A stretch of DNA of 64,000 nucleotides from Thermoplasmata archaeon (GTDB lineage: Archaea > Thermoplasmatota > Thermoplasmata > Lutacidiplasmatales > UBA184), in assembly GCA_035532555.1 (NCBI GenBank), contig DATKQS010000017.1, forward strand, positions 1-64,000, given 5' to 3'. The notes below the pieces were generated by a model. That model had not been told where the DNA came from. It searched no databases and worked only from the letters and a program-made list of their open reading frames with translations. The translations under genes were made by a program, and so were the position numbers. Below, one piece after another: positions 26,882 through 39,630 of the stretch; position 1 is the first letter of the stretch; each line of letters begins with the position of its first letter.

Positions 26882-27032
26882 GGGCGAACGGGTGCCGAAA
26901 GCTCGGTGCGCGCGAGCGCCGGGCTCGGCGTGGCCCCATGCATCATCTCCGCGAGGTACTCCTTCAGATCCTGCGGACCGCTCGGGCTGCCGTGGGCCGT
27001 GAGGAGGACGCCGATCGGCTCTTCGCGCTCAT
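26878..27032 (-). pseudogene. hemH: Truncated, frameshifted ferrochelatase (hemH remnant)
   Basis: After hemE, the minus strand encodes IGVLLTAHGSPSGPQDLKEY then LAEMMHGATPSPALARTEL. This is the N-terminus of a HemH/CpfC-type ferrochelatase (compare the G-L-L-x-M-A-Y-G-T-P and D-I-x-x-Y motifs of the bacterial enzyme). The frame stops after only about 45 homologous residues, where a normal enzyme has about 310. No start codon exists in this frame. The ATG that overlaps the hemE stop (27030-27032) is one base out of phase; one extra G after AAG would restore M-S-A-K-E-P-I-G. The 3' break coincides with the end of the flippase gene. Confidence 0.75.
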
Positions 27033-28066
27033 GGAGACGATCCGAGCGGCTCCGGGTGGTGGACGAACTCGACGAGCTCCTCCACTCGGGCAGGATCGGT
27101 GGTGGGAAGGACCCCATGGCCCAGATTGAAGACGTGCGAACGGCCGTCCGGGATCTCGTTCAGGACCCGCCGAGCGGCCGCCCTCAGCGTCCCCGCGTCG
27201 CCGAGGAGGGCACCGGGATCGAGGTTGCCCTGGAGGGCGAGATCCGCGCCGATCCGACGTCGCACCCGGCCGAGCGATTCGCGCCAATCGACCCCCAGCG
27301 CCGTCGCGCCGAGATCGGCGAGCTGTTCGAGCAGGTGCGAGGAGCCCGTCGAGAAGTAGATCGTGGGGAGCTTCAACGGCTGGAGCGCCTCGAACAGTCG
27401 CTTGAGGCGGTCGGCGAGGTGCTCGGCGAAGACCCGATCGCTCACCGTCCCGACCCAGGTGTCGAACAGCTGGAGGGCCGCGGCCCCGGCCCGAGCCTGC
27501 ATCCGCAGGTACTCCACGGTCATGTCGGTGAGGCGGTCGAGAAGGAGATCGAATCCCGCGGGGTCCCGGTAGAGGAAGCGCTTGGTCTCGGCGTACTCCC
27601 GCGAGGCTCCTCCTTCGATGAGATAGGAGGCGAGCGTGAAGGGGCCGCCGGCGAATCCGATGATCGGCCGTTCGGTCTCGAGCTCCCGGTACCGTCGGAT
27701 CGTTCCTCCCACGAACCCCACGCTCTTCTCGGCATCGAACGCGGTGAGCCCCTCGACCTGGGCGCGGGTCCGGATCGGCTTCGGGATCACCGGCCCCACC
27801 CCCGGGTCGATCGAGAAATCGATCCCGAGGCCGGCGTACGGCAGCGTGATGTCGGCGTAGACGATCGCCGCATCCAGGTCGAATCGCCGCAGCGGCTCCA
27901 GCGTCACCTCGACCGCGAGTTCGGGCGTCCGCGCGAGCTCGAGGATCGGGTGGCGCTCGCGAAGGGCCCGGTAGCCGGGCAGGTACCGGCCGGCTTGGCG
28001 CATCAGCCAGATCGGTCGCCGGTCGACCTCCTCCCCTCGGAGGGCGCGAAGGACCCGATCGCGCAT
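27029..28066 (-). CDS. hemE: Uroporphyrinogen decarboxylase
   Basis: A 345-residue TIM-barrel enzyme that decarboxylates the four acetates of uroporphyrinogen III to give coproporphyrinogen III. The N-terminal signature RPIWLMRQAGRYLPGYR and the catalytic Asp region in VYADITLPYAGLG are present. GFAGGPFTLASYLIEGG and the C-terminal FNLGHGVLPTTDP complete the family pattern. The start overlaps the hemL stop at one base. The hemE stop TGA is inside an ATGA junction with the decayed hemH start. Confidence 0.96.
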   Translation of the reverse strand: MRDRVLRALRGEEVDRRPIWLMRQAGRYLPGYRALRERHPILELARTPELAVEVTLEPLRRFDLDAAIVYADITLPYAGLGIDFSIDPGVGPVIPKPIRTRAQVEGLTAFDAEKSVGFVGGTIRRYRELETERPIIGFAGGPFTLASYLIEGGASREYAETKRFLYRDPAGFDLLLDRLTDMTVEYLRMQARAGAAALQLFDTWVGTVSDRVFAEHLADRLKRLFEALQPLKLPTIYFSTGSSHLLEQLADLGATALGVDWRESLGRVRRRIGADLALQGNLDPGALLGDAGTLRAAARRVLNEIPDGRSHVFNLGHGVLPTTDPARVEELVEFVHHPEPLGSSP

Positions 28067-29373
28067 CAGCCTCCGCTCCGTGCGACGCGGGCGAACGCCT
28101 CGGCGAAGCGGGGCCGGGCCCAGGCGATCTCGCGAGCACCGACCGCGGTGGAGAGGAAGGTCGTCTCGAAGGCGGACGGAGGGAGCGCGATCCTCCGGTC
28201 CAGGGCGGCGTGGAAGAACCGGGCGTAGCGTTTCCGGTCGAGCCCGCGGGTGTCGGCGAAGTTCCGGATCGGACCCGGTCCGAAGGAGAGGCCCAGCATC
28301 GAGCCGACCCGTTGGATCGTGAACGGGGCGACGCCGGCGCCGTCCGCGGTCTCCCGAAGCGCCCGCTCCAGGGCGCGACCGGACCGTTCGAGCGAGCGGT
28401 AGGTGGATGCGGTCAGTGCGTCGAGCGTGGCGATCCCGGCGGCCATGGCGACGGGGTTACCCGCGAGGGTCCCGGCCTGGTAGACCGGGCCGAGGGGGGC
28501 GACCGCTTCCATGACGTCGCGTCGGCCCCCGTACGCTCCGACCGGCATCCCTCCGCCGATGATCTTGCCGAGCGTGACGAGGTCCGGGGTGAGTCCGAGG
28601 GTGGGGGCCGCCAGCCCTCGGCGCAACCGGAAGCCGGTGATTACCTCGTCCGCGATCGACAGCGCGCCCGACCGATGGCAATGACGACCGATCGCGGCGA
28701 GGAACCCCGGTTCGGGGGGTACGACTCCCATGTTGGCGGCGACCGGCTCGACGATGACGGCGGCGGTTTGGGTCCCCCAGCGTTCGAACCAGGCGTGGAG
28801 CGCCGGCACGTCGTTGTACGGGAGCACGTGGGTTTCCGCGACGATCGATCGAGGAACTCCCGCCGAATCCGGCTGGGCCGCGCTTGCGAGACCGGAGCCG
28901 GCCCGGGCGAGCAGACCATCGGAGTGGCCGTGGTACCCGCCCTCGAACTTCACGATGCGGTTGCGACCCGTGAATCCACGGGCGACCCGCAAGGCGCTCA
29001 TGGTGGCCTCGGTTCCCGAGGAGACGAACCGGATGCGCTCGATCGCCGGGGCCGCACGCCGGATCCGCTCGCCGAGCTCGTGCTCGAGGGGCGATGGGGC
29101 CCCGAAGGAGAGGCCCCGCGCAGCGGTCTCGCGGACCGATCGAACGACCGAGGGGGGAGACGCACCGAGGATGTTGGCTCCCCACGAGCCGACGAGGTCG
29201 AGGTAGCGAGCTCCGTCCACGTCCGTCAGCCATGCGCCCCGGCCCCGGGCGTAGAAGACCGGGGTGCCTCCGACCGAGGTGAACGCGCGGACCGGGCTAT
29301 CGACCCCTCCGACGAGGGTCCGCTGGGCCCGCCGGAACAGGGCCCGGGAACGCGGCCCGGGCGCGGGGCTCAC
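28066..29373 (-). CDS. hemL: Glutamate-1-semialdehyde 2,1-aminomutase
   Basis: A 435-residue PLP enzyme that makes 5-aminolevulinate from glutamate-1-semialdehyde in the C5 pathway. The PLP lysine is Lys270 in DLVTLGKIIGGGMPVGAYGG (read in parts), with FVSSGTEATMSALR binding the phosphate and SIADEVITGFR carrying the PLP aspartate. The N-terminal GGVDSPVRAF and the YHGHSDG block match the family. The GTG start lies in a 4-bp overlap with the upstream hemQ gene. It is a normal full-length enzyme. Confidence 0.96.
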   Translation of the reverse strand: MSPAPGPRSRALFRRAQRTLVGGVDSPVRAFTSVGGTPVFYARGRGAWLTDVDGARYLDLVGSWGANILGASPPSVVRSVRETAARGLSFGAPSPLEHELGERIRRAAPAIERIRFVSSGTEATMSALRVARGFTGRNRIVKFEGGYHGHSDGLLARAGSGLASAAQPDSAGVPRSIVAETHVLPYNDVPALHAWFERWGTQTAAVIVEPVAANMGVVPPEPGFLAAIGRHCHRSGALSIADEVITGFRLRRGLAAPTLGLTPDLVTLGKIIGGGMPVGAYGGRRDVMEAVAPLGPVYQAGTLAGNPVAMAAGIATLDALTASTYRSLERSGRALERALRETADGAGVAPFTIQRVGSMLGLSFGPGPIRNFADTRGLDRKRYARFFHAALDRRIALPPSAFETTFLSTAVGAREIAWARPRFAEAFARVARSGG

Positions 29374-30092
29374 GGGATTCCCTCGGCGAGCTCGATCATC
29401 CGCTTCGGGCGGACCCGGAGCGCGGTGAAGATCGGCGTCTCGAGCTGCGTGTAACGGCTCGCCTCGGTCGGGCGGAGATCGGACACGAGGTCCAGGAACT
29501 CCGCGGGGGATTCGGCTTCGAAGGAGAGGATGAACTCCATGTCATCGAGGCCGAAGGAGTAGGCGGTGTGGATCAGCACGTTCGGATACTTGTGGCCGAT
29601 CCGGAAGTGCTCGCCCATGATGCGTCGGCGTTCCTCGAACGGGAGGCCGTACCAGTCCCGTCGCTTGACGAATGGATAGAGGAACAGGTAGGGAAGATCG
29701 GCGGGCCGACGCTGGGACGATCCGCCCTCTTGCCCCGCGTGCGCGTGCTCGCCCAGGTACTCGGAACGGCGGGCCATCCCGAGGTAGGAGTACCGTGTTT
29801 CGAGATAGCCCCCCATCTCGGTTCCGAAGAGCCGGGCGTGCCACTGCTGGATCTGCTCGAGGTCCGGGGAGATCATCCACAGGAGCATCTCGACATCGGC
29901 CTTCGTGCCGACCAGAGAGAACGTTCGAACGATCGCTCCGGCGGGCGGGGATTCGAGGACCCGCTCGAGCTGCGCGCTCCCGCGGTGGCGCAGGTGCGTG
30001 GCCCGTCGCCGCCACTTTGGGCTCAGGCGCAGGAGGGTATACTTGACGAAATCGCGCGGCTCGGAGTCTCCCTCGGCTGCCGGCTCGGTCAT
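29370..30092 (-). CDS. hemQ: HemQ/chlorite dismutase-family coproheme decarboxylase
   Basis: A 240-residue heme-dependent peroxidase-fold protein. In the HemQ route it oxidatively decarboxylates coproheme III to heme b. Tyr139 in LYPFVKRRDWY aligns with the catalytic tyrosine and His167 in GHKYP with the proximal histidine, 28 residues later as in Firmicute HemQ. The C-terminal YSFGLDDMEFILSFEAE is a clear family signature. Catalytic chlorite dismutases carry a distal Arg in place; the Tyr and context favour HemQ. It overlaps hemL and hemB by 4 bp each. Confidence 0.88.
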   Translation of the reverse strand: MTEPAAEGDSEPRDFVKYTLLRLSPKWRRRATHLRHRGSAQLERVLESPPAGAIVRTFSLVGTKADVEMLLWMISPDLEQIQQWHARLFGTEMGGYLETRYSYLGMARRSEYLGEHAHAGQEGGSSQRRPADLPYLFLYPFVKRRDWYGLPFEERRRIMGEHFRIGHKYPNVLIHTAYSFGLDDMEFILSFEAESPAEFLDLVSDLRPTEASRYTQLETPIFTALRVRPKRMIELAEGIP

Positions 30093-31108
30093 CGTCCCTC
30101 CTGAGACCACCGGGCCAGATCGCGGGCGAAGTAGGAGATCACGAGGTCGGCGCCGGCGCGGTGCATCGCATTCGTCGCCTCGATTACCGCAGCACGTTCG
30201 TCGAGCCACCCGCGCTCGGCCGCGGCACGGATCATGGCGTACTCCCCGCTGACCTGGTAGGCGGCGATCGGGTGGGGGAACTGCGCCCGGGCGCGCGCGA
30301 TCACATCCAGGGAAGGGAGAGCGGGCTTGACCATGAGGACGTCCGCTCCCTCGGCAGCGTCCAGCGCGAGCTCGCGGAGCGCTTCCCGTCCGTTCCGAGG
30401 GTCCATCTGGTAGGAGCGGCGGTCCCCGAACGAGGGGGTCGAATCGGCAGCGTCGCGGAACGGTCCGTAGAACGACGAGGCGAACTTCGCCGCGTACGCG
30501 ACGATGCCCGTGGTTTCGAATCCGGCCCCATCCAGCGCGGCCCGGATGCCGGCGACCTGGTGGTCCATCATGGCGCTCGGAGCGACGAAGTGGGCTCCCG
30601 CGCGCGCGTGGGCGACCGCGATCCGACCGAGTCGATCGACGGTGGCGTCGTTGTCGATCTCCGAGCCTCGGAGGATCCCGCAATGCCCGTGCCGAGTGTA
30701 CGAGCACAAGCAGACGTCCGTCCAGATCACCAGATCCGGAGCCGCGCGCCGGATCGAGCGGATCGCACGGACGACGCTTGAGTTCGAGCTCCACGCCTCG
30801 TGGCCATCGATCTCTTTTCGCTTCGGCAGGCCAAAGAGGAGCACCGCCGGTATCCTTTCGCGGAGGAGGTCCCGGGCGAGCGTTCCCACCGTGTCCGTAC
30901 CGTAGCGCAGGACCCCGGGGAGCGACGGGATCGCCTCGGGGCGTCCCTCCGAAGGGCGTAGGAACACGGGATACACGAGGCGGGAGGGAGCGGCGCGGAC
31001 CTCGGCGAAGAGCTCGCGGATCGCCGGGGTCGTACGAAGTCGTCGCATGCGTTCGGAGGAGGTCGCGCCCGATCGGGATCCGATGCGGGAAGAGTCAGTC
31101 CGTTGCAT
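30089..31108 (-). CDS. hemB: Porphobilinogen synthase (5-aminolevulinate dehydratase)
   Basis: A 339-residue TIM-barrel enzyme joining two ALA molecules into porphobilinogen. The zinc cysteines are Cys133, Cys135 and Cys143 in DVCLCSYTRHGHCG, so it is the zinc-dependent type. The two Schiff-base lysines are Lys208 (YAAKFAS) and Lys261 (MVKPALP). The N-terminus has RRLRTTPAIREL. ATG 31108 overlaps hemD by 14 bp; an internal ATG 20 codons later is also possible. It overlaps hemQ by 4 bp. Confidence 0.95.
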   Translation of the reverse strand: MQRTDSSRIGSRSGATSSERMRRLRTTPAIRELFAEVRAAPSRLVYPVFLRPSEGRPEAIPSLPGVLRYGTDTVGTLARDLLRERIPAVLLFGLPKRKEIDGHEAWSSNSSVVRAIRSIRRAAPDLVIWTDVCLCSYTRHGHCGILRGSEIDNDATVDRLGRIAVAHARAGAHFVAPSAMMDHQVAGIRAALDGAGFETTGIVAYAAKFASSFYGPFRDAADSTPSFGDRRSYQMDPRNGREALRELALDAAEGADVLMVKPALPSLDVIARARAQFPHPIAAYQVSGEYAMIRAAAERGWLDERAAVIEATNAMHRAGADLVISYFARDLARWSQEGR

Positions 31109-31856
31109 GGGCGAGCACTCCAAGAAGGTAGGGGGTAAAGCGTTGTACCGAGGCGGACGGAGCGACACCCACTTCGCGAAGACCGTGACCCCGCGCCGCC
31201 TTCGCGGTGCGGGGACCGAGCACGACCCAGCGGGCCGACCGGGCCAGATGGCGAAAGGTGCCGAGACCCACCATCCGGCGGAAGTGCGAGATCGCCGAGG
31301 GGCTCGCGGCGACCACGACCCGTGCCGCACGCGCCGACCGTTGCGCATCCGCGTCGAGCCGGGGACCCGGGCGGGTCCGATACACCAGCAAATCCAGCAC
31401 CGCGTGCCCGCTTGCCGCGAGTTCTCGGCCGAAGCGGGGTCCCGCTCGATCCGATCGTGGAAGGACGATGCGTCGCCGACGCCCGGCGAGCGCGCGGCGC
31501 ACGGGCTCGGCGCCTTCCCCGTTCGCACGCCGGACCCGAGCTACCCCGGCCTTTTTCAGCGCCCGTTCGGTCTCGGTCCCGACGGCCCAGAACTCTACGG
31601 ATGCGGATCGGAACCCGGCGTGTCGCAGCAGGGGGCGCACGAACGCCTCGACCGCTGCCTTGCTGGAGACCGCCACGGTATCGAACGGGCCGAACCGCTC
31701 GAGCCGTCGGGCGATGTTCGCGCGGGCGGCCGGGGACGGGACTACGGTCTCGACCCTCTGGAGCCGAATGCCGTTGCGGGCCAGTTCAGCACCGAGAGTG
31801 GGCAGGGTCGTTCGAGAGGAAAGGAGCAGTACCGCAGGCGGCCGTCGGTCGGGCAC
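31095..31856 (-). CDS. hemD: Uroporphyrinogen-III synthase
   Basis: A 253-residue protein with the two-lobed HemD layout. It cyclises hydroxymethylbilane with inversion of ring D. Conservation in HemD is low and identification rests on the pattern of short strands (AVSSKAAVEAFV, EFWAVGTETERAL, IVLPRSDRAG, VVAASPSAISHF, RWVVLGPRTAKAA) and on its place between hemC and hemB. GTG 31856 is preferred, 7 bp after the hemC stop; an ATG at 31904 would overlap hemC by 41 bp. Confidence 0.9.
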   Translation of the reverse strand: MPDRRPPAVLLLSSRTTLPTLGAELARNGIRLQRVETVVPSPAARANIARRLERFGPFDTVAVSSKAAVEAFVRPLLRHAGFRSASVEFWAVGTETERALKKAGVARVRRANGEGAEPVRRALAGRRRRIVLPRSDRAGPRFGRELAASGHAVLDLLVYRTRPGPRLDADAQRSARAARVVVAASPSAISHFRRMVGLGTFRHLARSARWVVLGPRTAKAARGHGLREVGVAPSASVQRFTPYLLGVLAHATD

Positions 31857-31863
31857 GATCTTC

Positions 31864-32772
31864 CTACCGGGCCACCTGCGCGAGGAGCTCCCGCGCCCCC
31901 GCATCGTTCAGCGCCTTCCCTACGCGTCGCCCGAGGCTTGCGGCCCGGCCGAGAGAGTCACTCCCACGCGCGGCGAGTGTGATCGTTCCATCGGGAGACA
32001 GGACCTCCGCCCTCAGAACCAGTCCACCGGAGCGAACCGTGGCCAGTGCCCCGAGAGGCAGGTTGCAGTCGCCGCCCACCGCGGCGGCGAGTTCCCTCTC
32101 GGCGGTCACCGCCGCACGGACCGCGGGAGCGTCGAGTCGGGCGGCGATTCGGGCGACCCGCCGGTCCCCCCGTCTCGCCTCGAGCGCGAGGGCCCCTTGT
32201 CCGGGGGCCGGAAGGAAACGGGTGCTCGGGAGGATGCCGGAGATCTCCGATTGCCGACCCAGCCGGGCGATCCCCGCCACCGCGACGAGGATGGCGTCGA
32301 TCCTTCGGGTGCGGACGAGGCCGATGCGTGTGTCGACATTGCCTCGTACCTCTTGGACGCGGAGATCGGGACGCCATCGGAGCAGCTGAGCTCTCCGTCG
32401 TAGGCTGCTCGATCCGACCCGGGCTCGCGGTGGGAGCCGCATCGCGTTCAGGCCCTTGCGTGCGACGAGGCAGTCGCGGGCATCGGCCCGGGGCGGATAG
32501 GCCACGATCGTGAACGGGAGTAGGGTTCGTGCGGGGAGGTCCTTCGCGCTGTGAACGGCGAGATCGATCCGATGACGATTGAGCATCCGTTCGAAGATGC
32601 CCGTGAAGTCCGGGGAGGAACCTCCGGAGCGGTCCCGGTCTCCCGCGCTCTCGACCGCGACCACCTCGAAGGTGGCGCTTGGATCTGCCCGACGCAGGCG
32701 ACGCACCACGAGTTCGGTCTGTGCGCGCGCGAGCGGGCTTCGGCGCGTTCCGACCCGGATCGGGTCGCTCAC
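31864..32772 (-). CDS. hemC: Hydroxymethylbilane synthase (porphobilinogen deaminase)
   Basis: A 302-residue enzyme polymerising four porphobilinogens. The dipyrromethane cofactor attaches to Cys236 in AAVGGDCNLPLGA. The catalytic Asp is in HSAKDLP (residues 74-80), and GTRRSPLARAQT and RVGSSSLRRRAQL give the cofactor- and substrate-binding arginines. The GTG start overlaps the hemA stop by 4 bp. It is a typical full-length enzyme. Confidence 0.96.
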   Translation of the reverse strand: MSDPIRVGTRRSPLARAQTELVVRRLRRADPSATFEVVAVESAGDRDRSGGSSPDFTGIFERMLNRHRIDLAVHSAKDLPARTLLPFTIVAYPPRADARDCLVARKGLNAMRLPPRARVGSSSLRRRAQLLRWRPDLRVQEVRGNVDTRIGLVRTRRIDAILVAVAGIARLGRQSEISGILPSTRFLPAPGQGALALEARRGDRRVARIAARLDAPAVRAAVTAERELAAAVGGDCNLPLGALATVRSGGLVLRAEVLSPDGTITLAARGSDSLGRAASLGRRVGKALNDAGARELLAQVAR

Positions 32773-34070
32773 AGTCCGTCGGGATCGATTCGGTACAGGG
32801 CGAGCGCGAAACGACGCAGCCGATCGGCCTCGGCTCCCGGGGGAAGCTCGCGCACGCGTTCGGTCGGCTCGCGGAGCAGTTGTGCGACCAGCCGGCGGGT
32901 CATCCGATCGACGGCCATCCGCTGCTCCGGGGTCAGCGCGCCGAGGAACCTATCGGCGGTCTCGAGCTCGGCGGTACGGATCGCCTCCCCGTGCCGCCAC
33001 ACGGCGTCGATCCAAGGCTCGAGCAGCGTGCGCTCCAGTTCGATCCACGAGGCCCGAGCGCGATCGGCGACGTGCCGTTCGAGCGTGTCGGTCTCTCCGC
33101 CTCCCACCGCACCGACGCGGAGGTCTTCGAGGTCGAGGAGCCGGATCCGCGGATCGGCGCGGACCTGGGGATCCACGTTGCGTGGGACGCCCAGATCGAT
33201 GAGGAGGAGCGGACCGGTCGGATCTCCGAGGTCCGCGAGGCCGATGATCCGTCCACCGGACTTCGCGGCCGTCACGACCGCATCGGAGAGATGGATCTCC
33301 TGGGAGAGATGGGAGACGCTCGCCGCGCGCGCCCCCGTGGCCCGAAGGAAGTCCTCGGAAGGAGGTGCGGAGCGGTACAGCAAGGTCACCCGGGCGTACG
33401 AGGCGAGCGCCTCGGCCAGCTGGCGGCCGACAACCCCCGCCCCGACCACCACCACTCGGGGGAACGGTCGCGCGACCTCCTCCAGCAGCCGGGTGGCCGC
33501 CACGGCGGCGATCGATCGATGGGACGGAACGTCCGGCGCGATCGACTCCGCGGCCTCGACCGCGGAGTTCAGCACCCCACGCAACACCGGCCGCGGGTAG
33601 CGGCTCCGGACGCTGTGAGCGGCCCGGCGCACCTGCTCGCGCACCTCGCGCTCGCCGACCGCGAGCGACTCGAGCCCCGCGCTGACCCGGTAGACGTGGT
33701 TCACCGCCTCCGGGCCGACCCGGACGGTCCAGGCGGCCGGCGGACCGGGGAGGAGTTCCTGCCAACGTCGAGTGGCCTCGGGCGTTCGTACCAACACGAT
33801 GAGCTCGACGCGGTGGCAGGTGCGCAGTACTCCGATCTCCTCGGTGCCGGGGATCGACGCCCAGGCGCCCTCGACCCACTCCCAGGTGATCGCCCGGGCG
33901 ACGGTCTCGAGTTCGTCGATCGATGCCCGGCCCAGGCTCATCCCGAGCACCGCCACATTCAGGGGCGGTCCCTCGTGCTCGGACAGGGCGGGGTGGCCCT
34001 CCGCGGGTGCGGTGCGGGGAGGTTCATCTCCGCGATTCCGCGTTCCAACTGACCGAGAGCTCGACGGCAC
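32769..34070 (-). CDS. hemA: Glutamyl-tRNA reductase
   Basis: A 433-residue NADPH-dependent enzyme reducing glutamyl-tRNA to glutamate-1-semialdehyde, the first step of the C5 heme route. The catalytic Cys85 is in GVLRTCHRVEL, and the NADPH fold is VVVVGAGVVGRQLAEAL near residue 200. The C-terminal dimerisation helices follow. The GTG at 34070 gives a ~36-residue low-complexity N-terminal extension before the usual strand LNVAVLGMSL. A TATA-like box on the minus strand (34112-34122) supports transcription starting just upstream. First gene of the heme operon. Confidence 0.93.
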   Translation of the reverse strand: MPSSSRSVGTRNRGDEPPRTAPAEGHPALSEHEGPPLNVAVLGMSLGRASIDELETVARAITWEWVEGAWASIPGTEEIGVLRTCHRVELIVLVRTPEATRRWQELLPGPPAAWTVRVGPEAVNHVYRVSAGLESLAVGEREVREQVRRAAHSVRSRYPRPVLRGVLNSAVEAAESIAPDVPSHRSIAAVAATRLLEEVARPFPRVVVVGAGVVGRQLAEALASYARVTLLYRSAPPSEDFLRATGARAASVSHLSQEIHLSDAVVTAAKSGGRIIGLADLGDPTGPLLLIDLGVPRNVDPQVRADPRIRLLDLEDLRVGAVGGGETDTLERHVADRARASWIELERTLLEPWIDAVWRHGEAIRTAELETADRFLGALTPEQRMAVDRMTRRLVAQLLREPTERVRELPPGAEADRLRRFALALYRIDPDGL

Positions 34071-34725: not shown

Positions 34726-35676
34726 ATGCCCGGCCCGGCGGCCGATGTGAGCGCCGAACCGCTCGTAGCACGCGATCTCCGCAAGGTCTACACGACCCGC
34801 GGCTCGCCGCCGGTCGAGGCGCTCTCGGGAGTCTCTATCGAGGTCCGAGCCCGCGAACGGATCGCGCTCCTCGGAAGGAACGGGGCCGGGAAGACGACGT
34901 TCCTGAAGATCGCCTCCACGCTCCTCCGTCCGACCTCGGGCACGATCGAGATCTTCGGGCACGACGCCGACCGCAATCCGGACCGCGCCCGGCCGCTGAT
35001 CGCGGTCGTCCCGCAGGAGGGTAAGCCGTTCTTCCACCTCACCCCGCGCGAGCAGATCTACACGTACCTGCGGACCCGGGGGCTGAGCCGGGAGGTGGCC
35101 CAGACGCGCACCGCGACCGCGCTGGACCAGATGGGGCTCGAGGAGGTCCAGGACCGCCTCGCGATCACGCTCTCGGGCGGACAGCGCCAGAGGACGATGG
35201 TGGCGACCGTGATCGCCACGCACGCGCCGCTGCTCTTCCTGGACGAGCCGACGATCGGGATGGATCCCTTCGCGCGCCGGGCCGTCTGGGCCGCGCTACG
35301 CGAACTGACGCGGATGGGCTCGACGATGCTGCTGACGACCCACTACCTCGACGAGGCGGACGCGCTCAGCGATCGCCTGTACATCATCGAGCGGGGACGG
35401 GTGCTGATGGAAGGGACCGCCGAGGAGCTCAAACGCTCGGTCGGTGGGACCCTGAAGGTCACGATCGCCGGGCAGACCCAGCATATGGACCTGTTCCGTT
35501 CCTTCGGCACGGTGATGACGGACGGCACCTCCCTTACGGTCATCGTTCAGCCGGATTCCCTCGGCGAACTGATGGCGATCGCGGTCCGGGAGCGCCTGAC
35601 GACGACCGTCGGGCCCGTGACCCTGGAAGAGGCGTTCATGCGCGCGGTGGGGCGCTCGATCAATGAGGACGAGTGA
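34726..35676 (+). CDS. ABC-2 exporter ATPase (DrrA/CcmA type)
   Basis: A 316-residue ATPase. Walker A is GRNGAGKTTFL near residue 47, the signature LSGGQRQRTMV, Walker B LLFLDEPTIGMD and the switch His in TTHYLDEADALSDR. The ~80-residue C-terminal extension is the one seen in DrrA-type drug or polysaccharide exporters. The downstream permease starts 14 bp inside this gene. Substrate is unknown. An upstream AT-poor gap of 94 bp has a possible promoter near CGATATCG at 34707-34714. Confidence 0.92.
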   Translation: MPGPAADVSAEPLVARDLRKVYTTRGSPPVEALSGVSIEVRARERIALLGRNGAGKTTFLKIASTLLRPTSGTIEIFGHDADRNPDRARPLIAVVPQEGKPFFHLTPREQIYTYLRTRGLSREVAQTRTATALDQMGLEEVQDRLAITLSGGQRQRTMVATVIATHAPLLFLDEPTIGMDPFARRAVWAALRELTRMGSTMLLTTHYLDEADALSDRLYIIERGRVLMEGTAEELKRSVGGTLKVTIAGQTQHMDLFRSFGTVMTDGTSLTVIVQPDSLGELMAIAVRERLTTTVGPVTLEEAFMRAVGRSINEDE

Positions 35677-36427
35677 GTCCCCCGCCCCGTACCGGGCCTT
35701 CCGGGGGCTGTCCGCGTTCTTCTGGACGGAGGTGCGGGTCCAGTCGCACGAATCGACCGCGATGGCGACCTCGATGGTCGTCCAGGGAGTGCTCCTCGTC
35801 TTCGTCTTCATCCTCGATCGCAGCCTCCTTCCCGTCGCTTTCCTCGGCGCGATCATCTTCTCGATGTTCACGATGGGCCAGCGCCTCCTCAACGAGGCCG
35901 CCTACGTGCGGATCGACCACAAGGCCACCGATCTCTACCTCGCCTCCCCCCTGACCCCCGAGGCGTTCTTCCTGGGGATGGCGGCGGGCGTGATGCTCGT
36001 CTATCTCACTCCGGTCATCCTCCTGTTCGTCTTCGCCGAGATCGTCGTCGGCTACTCCGTGCCGACGGTCCTCCTGCTGGCCGGCACCGGCGCCCTCGTC
36101 TGGCTGTTCTCGGCATCGTTCGGATACGTCATCTCGACGTTCTTCCGCGATAACCGCGCAATCTGGGCGTACGCGAGCCTCATTTTCAACGGGTTCGGCG
36201 TGCTGCCGCCCGTCTTCTACCCGCTGTCTTACTTCCCGGTGGCGTTGCAGCCCATCGCTCTGATGCTCCCCCCGAGCGCCGCGACCGCACTCCTCCAAGT
36301 CTCGATCGGCGTCACGAGCCTCTCGACCGGCGCGATCGCCCTCGCCGCGAGCGCGCTCGTTGCGGAAACGCTCGCGATGTTCCTGTTCACGATCTACTGG
36401 GCCCGCCGCAAGGTCCGGGAGGACTAG
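35663..36427 (+). CDS. ABC-2 type exporter permease 1
   Basis: A 254-residue membrane protein with six hydrophobic helices. The ATG overlaps the ATPase gene by 14 bp. The pattern (FFWTEVRVQ entry, a long cytoplasmic stretch near residues 80-95, then YVISTFFRDNRAIW and a PPVFYPLSYFP loop) matches ABC-2 permeases of the DrrB group. It should form a heterodimer with the permease encoded next. Confidence 0.88.
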   Translation: MRTSESPAPYRAFRGLSAFFWTEVRVQSHESTAMATSMVVQGVLLVFVFILDRSLLPVAFLGAIIFSMFTMGQRLLNEAAYVRIDHKATDLYLASPLTPEAFFLGMAAGVMLVYLTPVILLFVFAEIVVGYSVPTVLLLAGTGALVWLFSASFGYVISTFFRDNRAIWAYASLIFNGFGVLPPVFYPLSYFPVALQPIALMLPPSAATALLQVSIGVTSLSTGAIALAASALVAETLAMFLFTIYWARRKVRED

Positions 36428-36429
36428 GC

Positions 36430-37209
36430 ATGGCCACCGCGACGGGGGAGCCGGTCGTCGCCCAGCGAGGCCGCGCGCTGCCCGCGTTCGCCATCATCGG
36501 CTGGAGGTGGATCGGCCGGAGCCCGGCGGTCGCCATCGCGCCGATCCTCCTCCCGTTCATCTTCCTGTACTTCCTGAGCCTGATCTCCCCTCCGTCCCTC
36601 CTCCCCCTCGAGATTGTGGGGGCGATGCTGTTCACGATGCAGAACATCGGCAGCTGGGTCCTCGGGGACAGCGCGATCTGGCGGATCGAGTGCTCGCTTC
36701 AGGACATGTTCGTGGCGAGTCCGCTGGGCCGGATCCGCTACCTGTTCGGGATTGCGTTCTCGAACCTGATCGCGATGGTCCCGGCGCTCGTCGTGCTCGT
36801 GGCCCTCCTCTACTTCGAGCTCGGCCGCAACGGGATGGCGTTCACCCCGTTCGCCGGCCTCGTCCTAGTGGGCGCGCTCGCGGTGATGTGGGCATTGTTC
36901 AGCGCGGTCGGCATCAGCGTGTCGAGCCGCGTCAAGACCCAGCGCGCCATCTACCCCGTGGGGAATCTCACGTTCACGATCCTCGGGATGCTCTCCCCCT
37001 TGTACTACCCGCTCACTTCGCTGCCGCCGGTTTGGCAGGACATGGCGCGGTTCCTGCCCACCACCTACGCGGCGCTCCTGGTCCAGGGGGCCTTCGGCAT
37101 CACCCCGGCGACGCCCCCGGAGATGGCCCTCTACGCCGGCCTGTTGCTCCTGAGCGCGACCGTGGGGATCGTGCTCGCGCTGAGGATGTACAAGTGGGGG
37201 ACGGAGTGA
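36430..37209 (+). CDS. ABC-2 type exporter permease 2
   Basis: A 259-residue, six-helix permease that starts 2 bp after permease 1. Similar landmarks are visible: an N-terminal WRWIGRSP amphipathic segment and, near residue 185, LSPLYYPLTSLPPVW, the ABC-2 loop. Two distinct permease genes with one ATPase suggest a heterodimeric exporter. The 161 bp that follow (37210-37370) hold no supported gene. Confidence 0.88.
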   Translation: MATATGEPVVAQRGRALPAFAIIGWRWIGRSPAVAIAPILLPFIFLYFLSLISPPSLLPLEIVGAMLFTMQNIGSWVLGDSAIWRIECSLQDMFVASPLGRIRYLFGIAFSNLIAMVPALVVLVALLYFELGRNGMAFTPFAGLVLVGALAVMWALFSAVGISVSSRVKTQRAIYPVGNLTFTILGMLSPLYYPLTSLPPVWQDMARFLPTTYAALLVQGAFGITPATPPEMALYAGLLLLSATVGIVLALRMYKWGTE

Positions 37210-37802: not shown

Positions 37803-38660
37803 ATGGCGAACTATGCACACCCTGACGTCTTGGTCGACACGGAATGGGTGCTCGCGCACCACAAGGACCCGAAGGTCCGCGTCGCGGAGGTCGATTACGA
37901 CCCTTCGGCGAACTACGAACAGGGGCACGTCCCCGGCGCGGTCCTCTTCGACTGGCGCAAGGACATCAATGACCCCGTAGCGCGCGACATCCTCTCCCAG
38001 CAGGCCCTGACGGAGCTGTTCCGTCGGGCGGGGATCGACGACGACACGACGGTCGTCCTGTACGGGGACTTCAACAACTGGTTCGCCGCGTTTGCCTTCT
38101 GGGTGTTCGCCTACTACGGGACGAAGCACGTCAAGATCCTGAACGGTGGCCGCAAGAAGTGGATCGCCGAGGACAAACCGCTCAGCAAGGACCCCCCGAA
38201 GCACCCCGCGGGTCACTTCACGGCGGCGGCGCCCAACCCGAAGCTGCGTGCCTACATGGACGATGTGCGCACGTCGCTGCCCGAGGTCAAGGCGGGGAAG
38301 TTCATCCTCATCGACGTGCGCGGACCGAAGGAGTTCTCCGGGGAGATCACCGCGCCGCCGGAGTACCCGACGGAGCACGCGCAGCGCGGGGGCCACATCC
38401 CCGGCGCGAAGAACATCCCGTGGGCCCAGGCGGTCAACGAGGACGGCACGTTCAAGTCCCGCGAGCAGCTCGAGGAGCTCTACGGCTCGAAGGGCGTCAA
38501 GTCCGAGACCCCCGTGGTCACGTACTGCCGGATCGGCGAGCGGTCGAGCCACACCTGGTTCGTCCTGACCTACCTGCTCGGGTACCCGAACGTGCGGAAC
38601 TACGACGGCTCGTGGACCGAGTGGGGCAATCTCATCCGAACGCCGATCGAGAAGCCGTAA
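37803..38660 (+). CDS. Two-domain thiosulfate sulfurtransferase (rhodanese)
   Basis: A 285-residue protein with an inactive N-terminal rhodanese domain (about 1-135) and a catalytic C-terminal one. The nucleophile is Cys242 in YCRIGERSSH, a loop typical of CysA-type/TST enzymes of actinobacteria and archaea. It transfers sulfane sulfur from thiosulfate or a similar donor to a thiol acceptor. CRIGERS motifs often act in assimilation rather than cyanide detoxification. A convergent GcvH/TusA-like fusion ends 4 bp away. Confidence 0.93.
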   Translation: MANYAHPDVLVDTEWVLAHHKDPKVRVAEVDYDPSANYEQGHVPGAVLFDWRKDINDPVARDILSQQALTELFRRAGIDDDTTVVLYGDFNNWFAAFAFWVFAYYGTKHVKILNGGRKKWIAEDKPLSKDPPKHPAGHFTAAAPNPKLRAYMDDVRTSLPEVKAGKFILIDVRGPKEFSGEITAPPEYPTEHAQRGGHIPGAKNIPWAQAVNEDGTFKSREQLEELYGSKGVKSETPVVTYCRIGERSSHTWFVLTYLLGYPNVRNYDGSWTEWGNLIRTPIEKP

Positions 38661-38664
38661 TGCG

Positions 38665-39357
38665 CTAGCCGCGTCGGGGCACCCGGGGGACCGGGTGCTC
38701 CTCCTTCCGGACGAGGAACTGGTGGAGATCGCCCTCGCGTCGGCGGGCGAGCAGTCCATGGCCCGCCTGATCGGACCAGCGCTCCATCTCGATCGGGCTC
38801 GTCGGATCGTCCGTCACAAGGAGGATCGCCGTGCCCGGCGGCCGGGCGGCGAGCTCTTCGTTGAGCTTGGTCAGGATCGCCGAGCATTCGATCCCGATCT
38901 CGAACATCTCGAGATCCGGTGTCGCCGGCCAGCAGTGGATGCGCTGGGCGTGGATCCGCTCGAGGAGCCGCTCCCGGATCGCGTGCGCGCCCTCCAGGGG
39001 GGGTCCATCGACCCGATCGGGACGGAAGCGCACGATCCACCCCGCGTCGTACGGGGAGTCGTTGACGAGCCGCGGCCGTTGGAAGAGCGCCGGGTTGCGC
39101 TCCGTGACGGTCCCATCGACGGGCAGGCGAACGGCCCCGGTGTAGCGGACGGTTTCGATCATCCCGACGCTCCGGCCCGCGGCGATCGCGCCCGGGAGGG
39201 GCCGGTAGGTCACGGCGGTGACGGGCCCGATGAATGCGGCGAAGGCCGAGATGATCCCGATCTTCGCCGAGGCGCCGCCCGGCTCGACGAGCATCCAGAC
39301 GTTGTTCTCGAGGTCATAGAGCCGATCCTCGGGCAGAGGGCAGCCTTCGAGATCCAC
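38665..39357 (-). CDS. GcvH-like (lipoyl lysine lost) and TusA-like fusion protein
   Basis: A 230-residue fusion. Residues ~10-115 align over their length with glycine cleavage H protein: VWMLVEPGGASAKIG, then ETVRYTGAVRLPVDGTV and the PRLVNDSPYDAGWI block. At the lipoylated lysine position the protein has Arg71, so lipoylation is not possible at the usual site. Residues ~140-230 resemble a TusA/SirA sulfur carrier: the cysteine (Cys158 in IGIECSAIL), PPGTAILLVTDDP and GHGLLARRREGDLHQFLVRK. The CPxP motif is degenerate. GTG 39357 has a TAAAG box ~26 bp upstream. The neighbouring rhodanese fits sulfur relay. Confidence 0.7.
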   Translation of the reverse strand: MDLEGCPLPEDRLYDLENNVWMLVEPGGASAKIGIISAFAAFIGPVTAVTYRPLPGAIAAGRSVGMIETVRYTGAVRLPVDGTVTERNPALFQRPRLVNDSPYDAGWIVRFRPDRVDGPPLEGAHAIRERLLERIHAQRIHCWPATPDLEMFEIGIECSAILTKLNEELAARPPGTAILLVTDDPTSPIEMERWSDQAGHGLLARRREGDLHQFLVRKEEHPVPRVPRRG

Positions 39358-39444: not shown

Positions 39445-39630
39445 ATGCCGGCGTCGACCCACGCTTCCCGCTCGCCGCGCCGGTTCCGCTGCCGCTGCGG
39501 CCACCTGCTCACGAACCACATGCAGGTCGAGGGGATTCCGGGCTCGGCCAGCTTCCGTCTCGAGCCGACGGGGCCCTGCGCCCTCTGCGGAGAAGGGATC
39601 TGCCGGAAGTTCTCGCCGGGGACCGCGTGA
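39445..39630 (+). CDS. Small zinc-binding protein
   Basis: A 61-residue protein. Four to five cysteines and a histidine are arranged as CRCGH ... CALCGEGIC, which could bind one zinc. The N-terminal 15 residues are basic. ATG 39445 is preceded by a TTTTTCG stretch. It sits between the GcvH/TusA-like gene (divergent) and the SRPBCC gene (convergent). No named family was recognised. Confidence 0.6.
   Translation: MPASTHASRSPRRFRCRCGHLLTNHMQVEGIPGSASFRLEPTGPCALCGEGICRKFSPGTA

Follow-up and report, generated by a model that had tools for sequence, protein, structure and literature searches.

What does a protein do that has the fold of a lipoyl carrier with an arginine in place of the lipoyl lysine, is fused to a TusA-like sulfur carrier domain, and is encoded next to a rhodanese? 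The question is raised by a gene for a protein of 230 residues, running from a GTG start, whose position is shared by close relatives, to a TAG stop, in a stretch of 64,000 nucleotides from an uncultured soil archaeon (the window, by which we mean the whole stretch of DNA analysed; Table 1). A sequence-only reading of the window had proposed a lipoate-independent sulfur relay or scaffold, derived from the systems of sulfur oxidisers and possibly undescribed. The answer that we favour is that the fusion is probably a lipoate-independent relay for sulfane sulfur, which would be fed by the adjoining rhodanese and would work by persulfide transfer.

Table 1. Features of the window. Codon positions of Arg71 and Cys158 were derived by coordinate arithmetic.
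Feature	Position	Strand	Basis
GcvH/LbpA-like + TusA-like fusion	38665..39357	(-)	ORF, Pfam, dN/dS against two close relatives
GcvH-like domain, residues 14-115	39013..39318	(-)	Pfam GCV_H, E 8.7e-20; Foldseek to 1onl, TMt 0.90
TusA-like domain without CPxP, residues 155-218	38704..38895	(-)	Pfam TusA, E 5e-6; Foldseek to 3lvj_C, TMt 0.87
Arg71 codon, lipoyl-lysine position	39145..39147	(-)	Gap-free alignment to solved H proteins
Codon of Cys6, which matches the N-terminal cysteine of LbpA	39340..39342	(-)	101/101; LbpA hallmark
Codon of Cys142, which matches the C-terminal cysteine of LbpA	38932..38934	(-)	102/102
Codon of Cys158, which matches the active cysteine of TusA	38884..38886	(-)	102/102
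Two-domain rhodanese (thiosulfate/3-mercaptopyruvate sulfurtransferase type), loop CRIGERS	37803..38660	(+)	Pfam Rhodanese, E 9e-35, two stretches
ABC transporter ATPase of the rhodanese/fusion block	34726..35676	(+)	Pfam ABC_tran
Two ABC-2 permeases, 35663-36427 and 36430-37209	35663..37209	(+)	Pfam ABC2_membrane

Pfam and two AlphaFold models agree on the architecture, a GcvH-like domain followed by a TusA-like one. At 26.7 bits, the TusA match of the window protein lies slightly under the curated Pfam cut-off of 28.6, and since both families are matched by all 54 rows of our alignment A2 and all 29 of alignment A3, neither half of the fusion is a chance match; for the TusA half this was ruled out by the 83 of 83 scanned rows together with the two structure models. 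AlphaFold2 modelled the window protein with a pLDDT of 95.0 and a pTM of 0.87, and a homologue only ∼25% identical to it (L163) with 93.3 and 0.87, the latter model reaching a Foldseek TMt of 0.87 to the H protein 1onl and of 0.83 to E. coli TusA (3lvj_C). The predicted fold of the C-terminal domain, on which the original proposal hinged, is thus that of TusA in both models, since Foldseek matches E. coli TusA with each. Equally, the gap-free alignment to solved H proteins across the modification site bears out that Arg71 occupies the lysine position, and the TusA cysteine said to be retained, Cys158, is conserved throughout the 102 full-length fusions that we collected from Thermoplasmatota and Thermoproteota. 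Two further cysteines, Cys6 and Cys142, had been overlooked, though they are as invariant as Cys158, and all three are among the only 11 invariant columns of alignment A3, whose sequences are 22–71% identical to its first member. Most lipoyl proteins belong to central carbon metabolism, and LbpA is one of the few exceptions. This lipoate protein of the sHdr sulfur-oxidation pathway has two cysteines absent from GcvH, one near the N-terminus and one near the C-terminal end of the domain, and TusA is a cytoplasmic sulfur carrier (PMC6067878). Comparison with archaeal LbpA (e.g., NGCEFPED...RCMRC in L110) places Cys6 and Cys142 at these two LbpA sites.

The gene is not a decaying singleton, as one might suspect from the altered lipoyl site. 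Two near relatives differ from the window protein by 10 and 14 residues at dN/dS values of 0.12 and 0.15, which indicates purifying selection on the fusion and, with 102 homologues collected, rules out a lone decay or pseudogene. In a single scan of GTDB contigs we met 73 fusion loci, nearly all from entries named Thermoplasmata archaeon; one entry bears the name Candidatus Lutacidiplasma, after which the main lineage is here called Lutacidiplasmatales. Among 390 sampled Thermoplasmatota genomes full-length matches are confined to the family of the window and one other genome (G035). Full-length fusions also occur in 26 of 349 genomes of Thermoproteota (the phylum of L088, Thaumarchaeota, and L100, Thermoprotei), and the order of a set of soil genomes labelled EA_, presumably Angelarchaeales, has 18 genomes with a match out of 37, one match being limited to residues 2–150. 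In a viral collection, none of 29 candidates was confirmed. One genome of Thermoprotei (G416) encodes two divergent copies on separate contigs (L195 and L196 on C54 and C38), one adjoining a rhodanese and the other a glycosyltransferase-like gene. In the literature searched, outside which most subscription journals lie, we found no description of a GcvH-TusA fusion or of an archaeal rhodanese-TusA pair, which is in line with the earlier suggestion that the fusion may be undescribed.

Whether the arginine has a meaning of its own can be judged from the family. Among the 102 fusions, residue 71 is Arg in 77, Lys in 20, Thr in two, and Ile, Val and Asn in one each. When the labels Lys, Arg and other are mapped on a tree of 56 members, 15 changes are required, at least 11 of which are forced for Lys and Arg by well-supported branches, and the two residues interchange between sister sequences (L091/L094, L185/L186, L161/L162). 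In contrast, the LbpA and GcvH proteins from these archaea used for comparison carry Lys at the lipoyl site in 34 of 34 cases, as read by eye, and the lipoyl lysine of LbpA is strictly conserved (95/95) in a published set (Cao et al., 2018; PMC6067878). That the ancestral fusion was lipoylated at Lys71 to serve an Hdr-like pathway, the Arg lineages having lost the cofactor secondarily, would be in keeping with the mostly ESGK-type contexts of the 20 lysines and with the LplA/LipB match in the genomes of 13 of them. We nevertheless consider it very improbable, as Lys and Arg are swapped between near neighbours, the other seven Lys copies come from genomes without a detected ligase (some of these being incomplete), and many fusion genomes lack both LbpA and sHdr. 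Homologues with Lys71, the observation that was to count against the original proposal, hence do exist, but interspersed among Arg relatives, and for some of them no lipoate ligase was detected in the genome. The variation at residue 71, the Lys of all comparators and the Lys71 copies without a ligase together indicate that selection does not maintain the lipoyl lysine in this family. Going by these sequences, the residue is simply unconstrained, so that Lys to Arg is no defined replacement; what stands of the earlier claim is the arginine of the window protein and, at the level of the family, the independence from lipoate. The idea that Arg71 marks rhodanese-linked members held in the first 70 sequences and then failed, because the copies near a rhodanese among the EA_ soil genomes include Lys71 (L224, L225, L227).

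The rhodanese, as had been read, ends 4 bp from the fusion gene. The two genes are convergent in the window, a point that had not been stressed, and for this reason do not form one operon there. The link is nonetheless deep, proximity being kept across two phyla: the distance to a rhodanese is three genes or fewer at 53 of the 54 Lutacidiplasmatales loci whose flanks are long enough (a count that is not independent, as the surrounding block is shared), at both loci of a second Thermoplasmata family, and at 21 of 25 loci in Thermoproteota. By simple arithmetic, chance would bring one specific gene this close to another in about 0.4% of genomes with 1,500 genes. Outside Lutacidiplasmatales, the genes that otherwise surround the pair differ. 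The rhodanese is not an obligate neighbour, since the EA_ soil lineage has it nearby at only 3 of 12 loci. The arrangement varies between convergent with small gaps and operon-like, with the rhodanese co-directional and upstream, as at 11 Thermoproteota loci (gaps of -11 to 318 bp). The CRIGER[SA] loop is present in every one of the 79 linked rhodaneses, and at eleven distant loci the rhodanese is 58–66% identical to that of the window, the fusion merely 24–44%.

Other genes around the fusion were recorded as well. Divergent from it in the window is a 61-residue ORF (39445-39630, plus strand) with CRCGH and CALCG motifs, zinc-ribbon-like in appearance, and small ORFs similar to it adjoin several orthologues of the fusion. 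Next to the ABC/rhodanese block is a series of genes (27029-34070, minus strand) that, judged by eye, resemble those of heme biosynthesis. In L086, L091 and L220, all of the EA_ soil lineage, the gene directly upstream of the fusion encodes a pirin, and at the first two of these loci it shares 4 bp with the fusion gene.

An ABC-2 transporter, in turn, is linked to the fusion in both phyla: at five Thermoproteota loci a homologue of the ATPase is encoded directly downstream of the fusion (E 8e-62 to 8e-70), with a homologous permease adjoining it (E 6e-20 to 2e-24). This linkage would also suit a protein that carries no sulfur and instead controls the rhodanese or the transporter, as a sensor or scaffold with its cysteines as metal ligands or in a disulfide responsive to sulfane sulfur, and a metal site would equally give three absolutely invariant cysteines. 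We regard such a role as rather improbable, because Cys158 occupies the carrier position of TusA within a TusA fold, and Cys6 and Cys142 are the cysteines of LbpA and form no known metal motif.

The genomic background argues for independence from the sulfur pathways in which such domains are known. A general role as an accessory of sHdr was rejected, as the fusion is found in many genomes with neither sHdr nor LbpA, and in several without a detected lipoate ligase; a profile search of the window's genome found no LbpA. Some Lutacidiplasmatales and a related lineage do have sHdr-type clusters, with Hdr-like subunits, LbpA-type proteins, TusA, and DsrE-like and lipoate-ligase-like proteins (L106 in G001, L110/L111 in G021, L107 in G035). 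The 2022 Lutacidiplasmatales paper does not contain the word heterodisulfide (PMC9287336); it reports a thiosulfate sulfurtransferase (TST) and a sulfite oxidase in this group and proposes oxidation of the sulfite derived from thiosulfate, naming, in that part, no sulfur acceptor for TST (Sheridan et al., 2022; PMC9287336). A link to sulfite oxidation was inconsistent: of 28 fusion genomes, only 16 encode sulfite-oxidase-type proteins (PF00174), and this pathway is hence no constant companion.

In seven Lutacidiplasmatales genomes, the TusA domain of the fusion is the only TusA-type domain found. This would be expected if the fusion were the general TusA of these archaea, donating sulfur for tRNA thiolation, molybdenum cofactor or Fe-S assembly with the rhodanese as one of several sources, and its presence with and without PF00174 oxidoreductases, and without sHdr or LbpA, points the same way. 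A housekeeping donor of this kind still seems unlikely to us, for a true TusA with CPxP coexists with the fusion in many genomes and the strong linkage to the rhodanese suggests a dedicated donor. The window's genome also encodes a second TusA-like protein without CPxP (RSCKGAI; L105:8597-8881 on contig C1, minus strand), which adjoins a dihydrodipicolinate-synthase-like gene.

For the relay that we favour speak the fold, the invariant cysteines, the drifting residue 71, the linkage to the rhodanese and the status of sole TusA-type domain in seven genomes; against it stand the convergent genes in the window, the missing CPxP and the presence of a rhodanese at only 3 of 12 EA_ loci. In such a relay, the two-domain rhodanese would take up sulfane sulfur on its CRIGERS cysteine, residue 242, with thiosulfate or a similar compound as the source, and would hand it, presumably in this direction, to Cys158 of the TusA-like domain, from where Cys142 and Cys6 might pass it on or might release a persulfide or disulfide to some acceptor. 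The GcvH-like barrel would serve as carrier body and docking surface, devoid of a lipoyl arm. In vitro, dihydrolipoate accepts sulfur from rhodanese (PMC6067878), and it is this part of sulfur acceptor that the TusA cysteine could take.

The separate contributions of the two cysteines and of lipoate in LbpA were not settled by Cao et al. (PMC6067878). The fusion family keeps both cysteines, drops the requirement for lipoate and adds a TusA cysteine, so that these roles are naturally separated in it. For the thiosulfate sulfurtransferase that others have reported from Lutacidiplasmatales, it offers a candidate acceptor, and with the rhodanese it makes up a two-gene module that spans two archaeal phyla and is open to work with purified proteins. 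We tentatively propose, as a distinct possibility, that rhodanese and three-cysteine GcvH/TusA chimera, often joined by an ABC-2 transporter, represent an undescribed, deeply conserved archaeal module of sulfur trafficking that is independent of the Hdr-like pathway, and where a TusA cysteine would replace the lipoyl arm.

How the fusion relates to known systems follows from what it shares with each. It has the fold and Pfam family of GcvH (TMt 0.90) and differs from it by the absence of a conserved lipoyl lysine, by two extra cysteines and by its place in the GcvH-domain tree, where fusions form one clade (100/99) and GcvH another (100/99); no glycine cleavage genes were recognised among the fusion neighbours examined. 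LbpA types group together (98/82), apart from both. Like LbpA, the fusion combines a GcvH-like fold, both extra cysteines and a context of sulfur metabolism, yet it is no member of that family, because lysine and gene context differ: LbpA strictly requires its lipoyl lysine and is encoded in or near hdr-like clusters, whereas the fusion requires no lysine, has an added TusA domain and lies outside such clusters in the neighbourhoods examined. The derivation from an sHdr system put forward by the sequence-only reading is thus only one possibility: the GcvH-like domain of the fusion forms a separate clade, and the shared cysteines, as far as sequences can tell, fit common ancestry and derivation from LbpA equally. 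With TusA, the fusion has in common the fold, the position of the active cysteine and the DDP motif, and it differs by the covalently attached GcvH-like domain and the absence of CPxP from all members, Cys158 being followed by Ser, Ala, Glu or Gln, and by Pro in two only. Finally, as in the rhodanese-TusA relay of sulfur-oxidising prokaryotes, a rhodanese and a TusA-type carrier are encoded together; unlike in that relay, neither DsrE nor an Hdr-like complex was recognised next to the fusion, and two carrier domains are joined in one chain.
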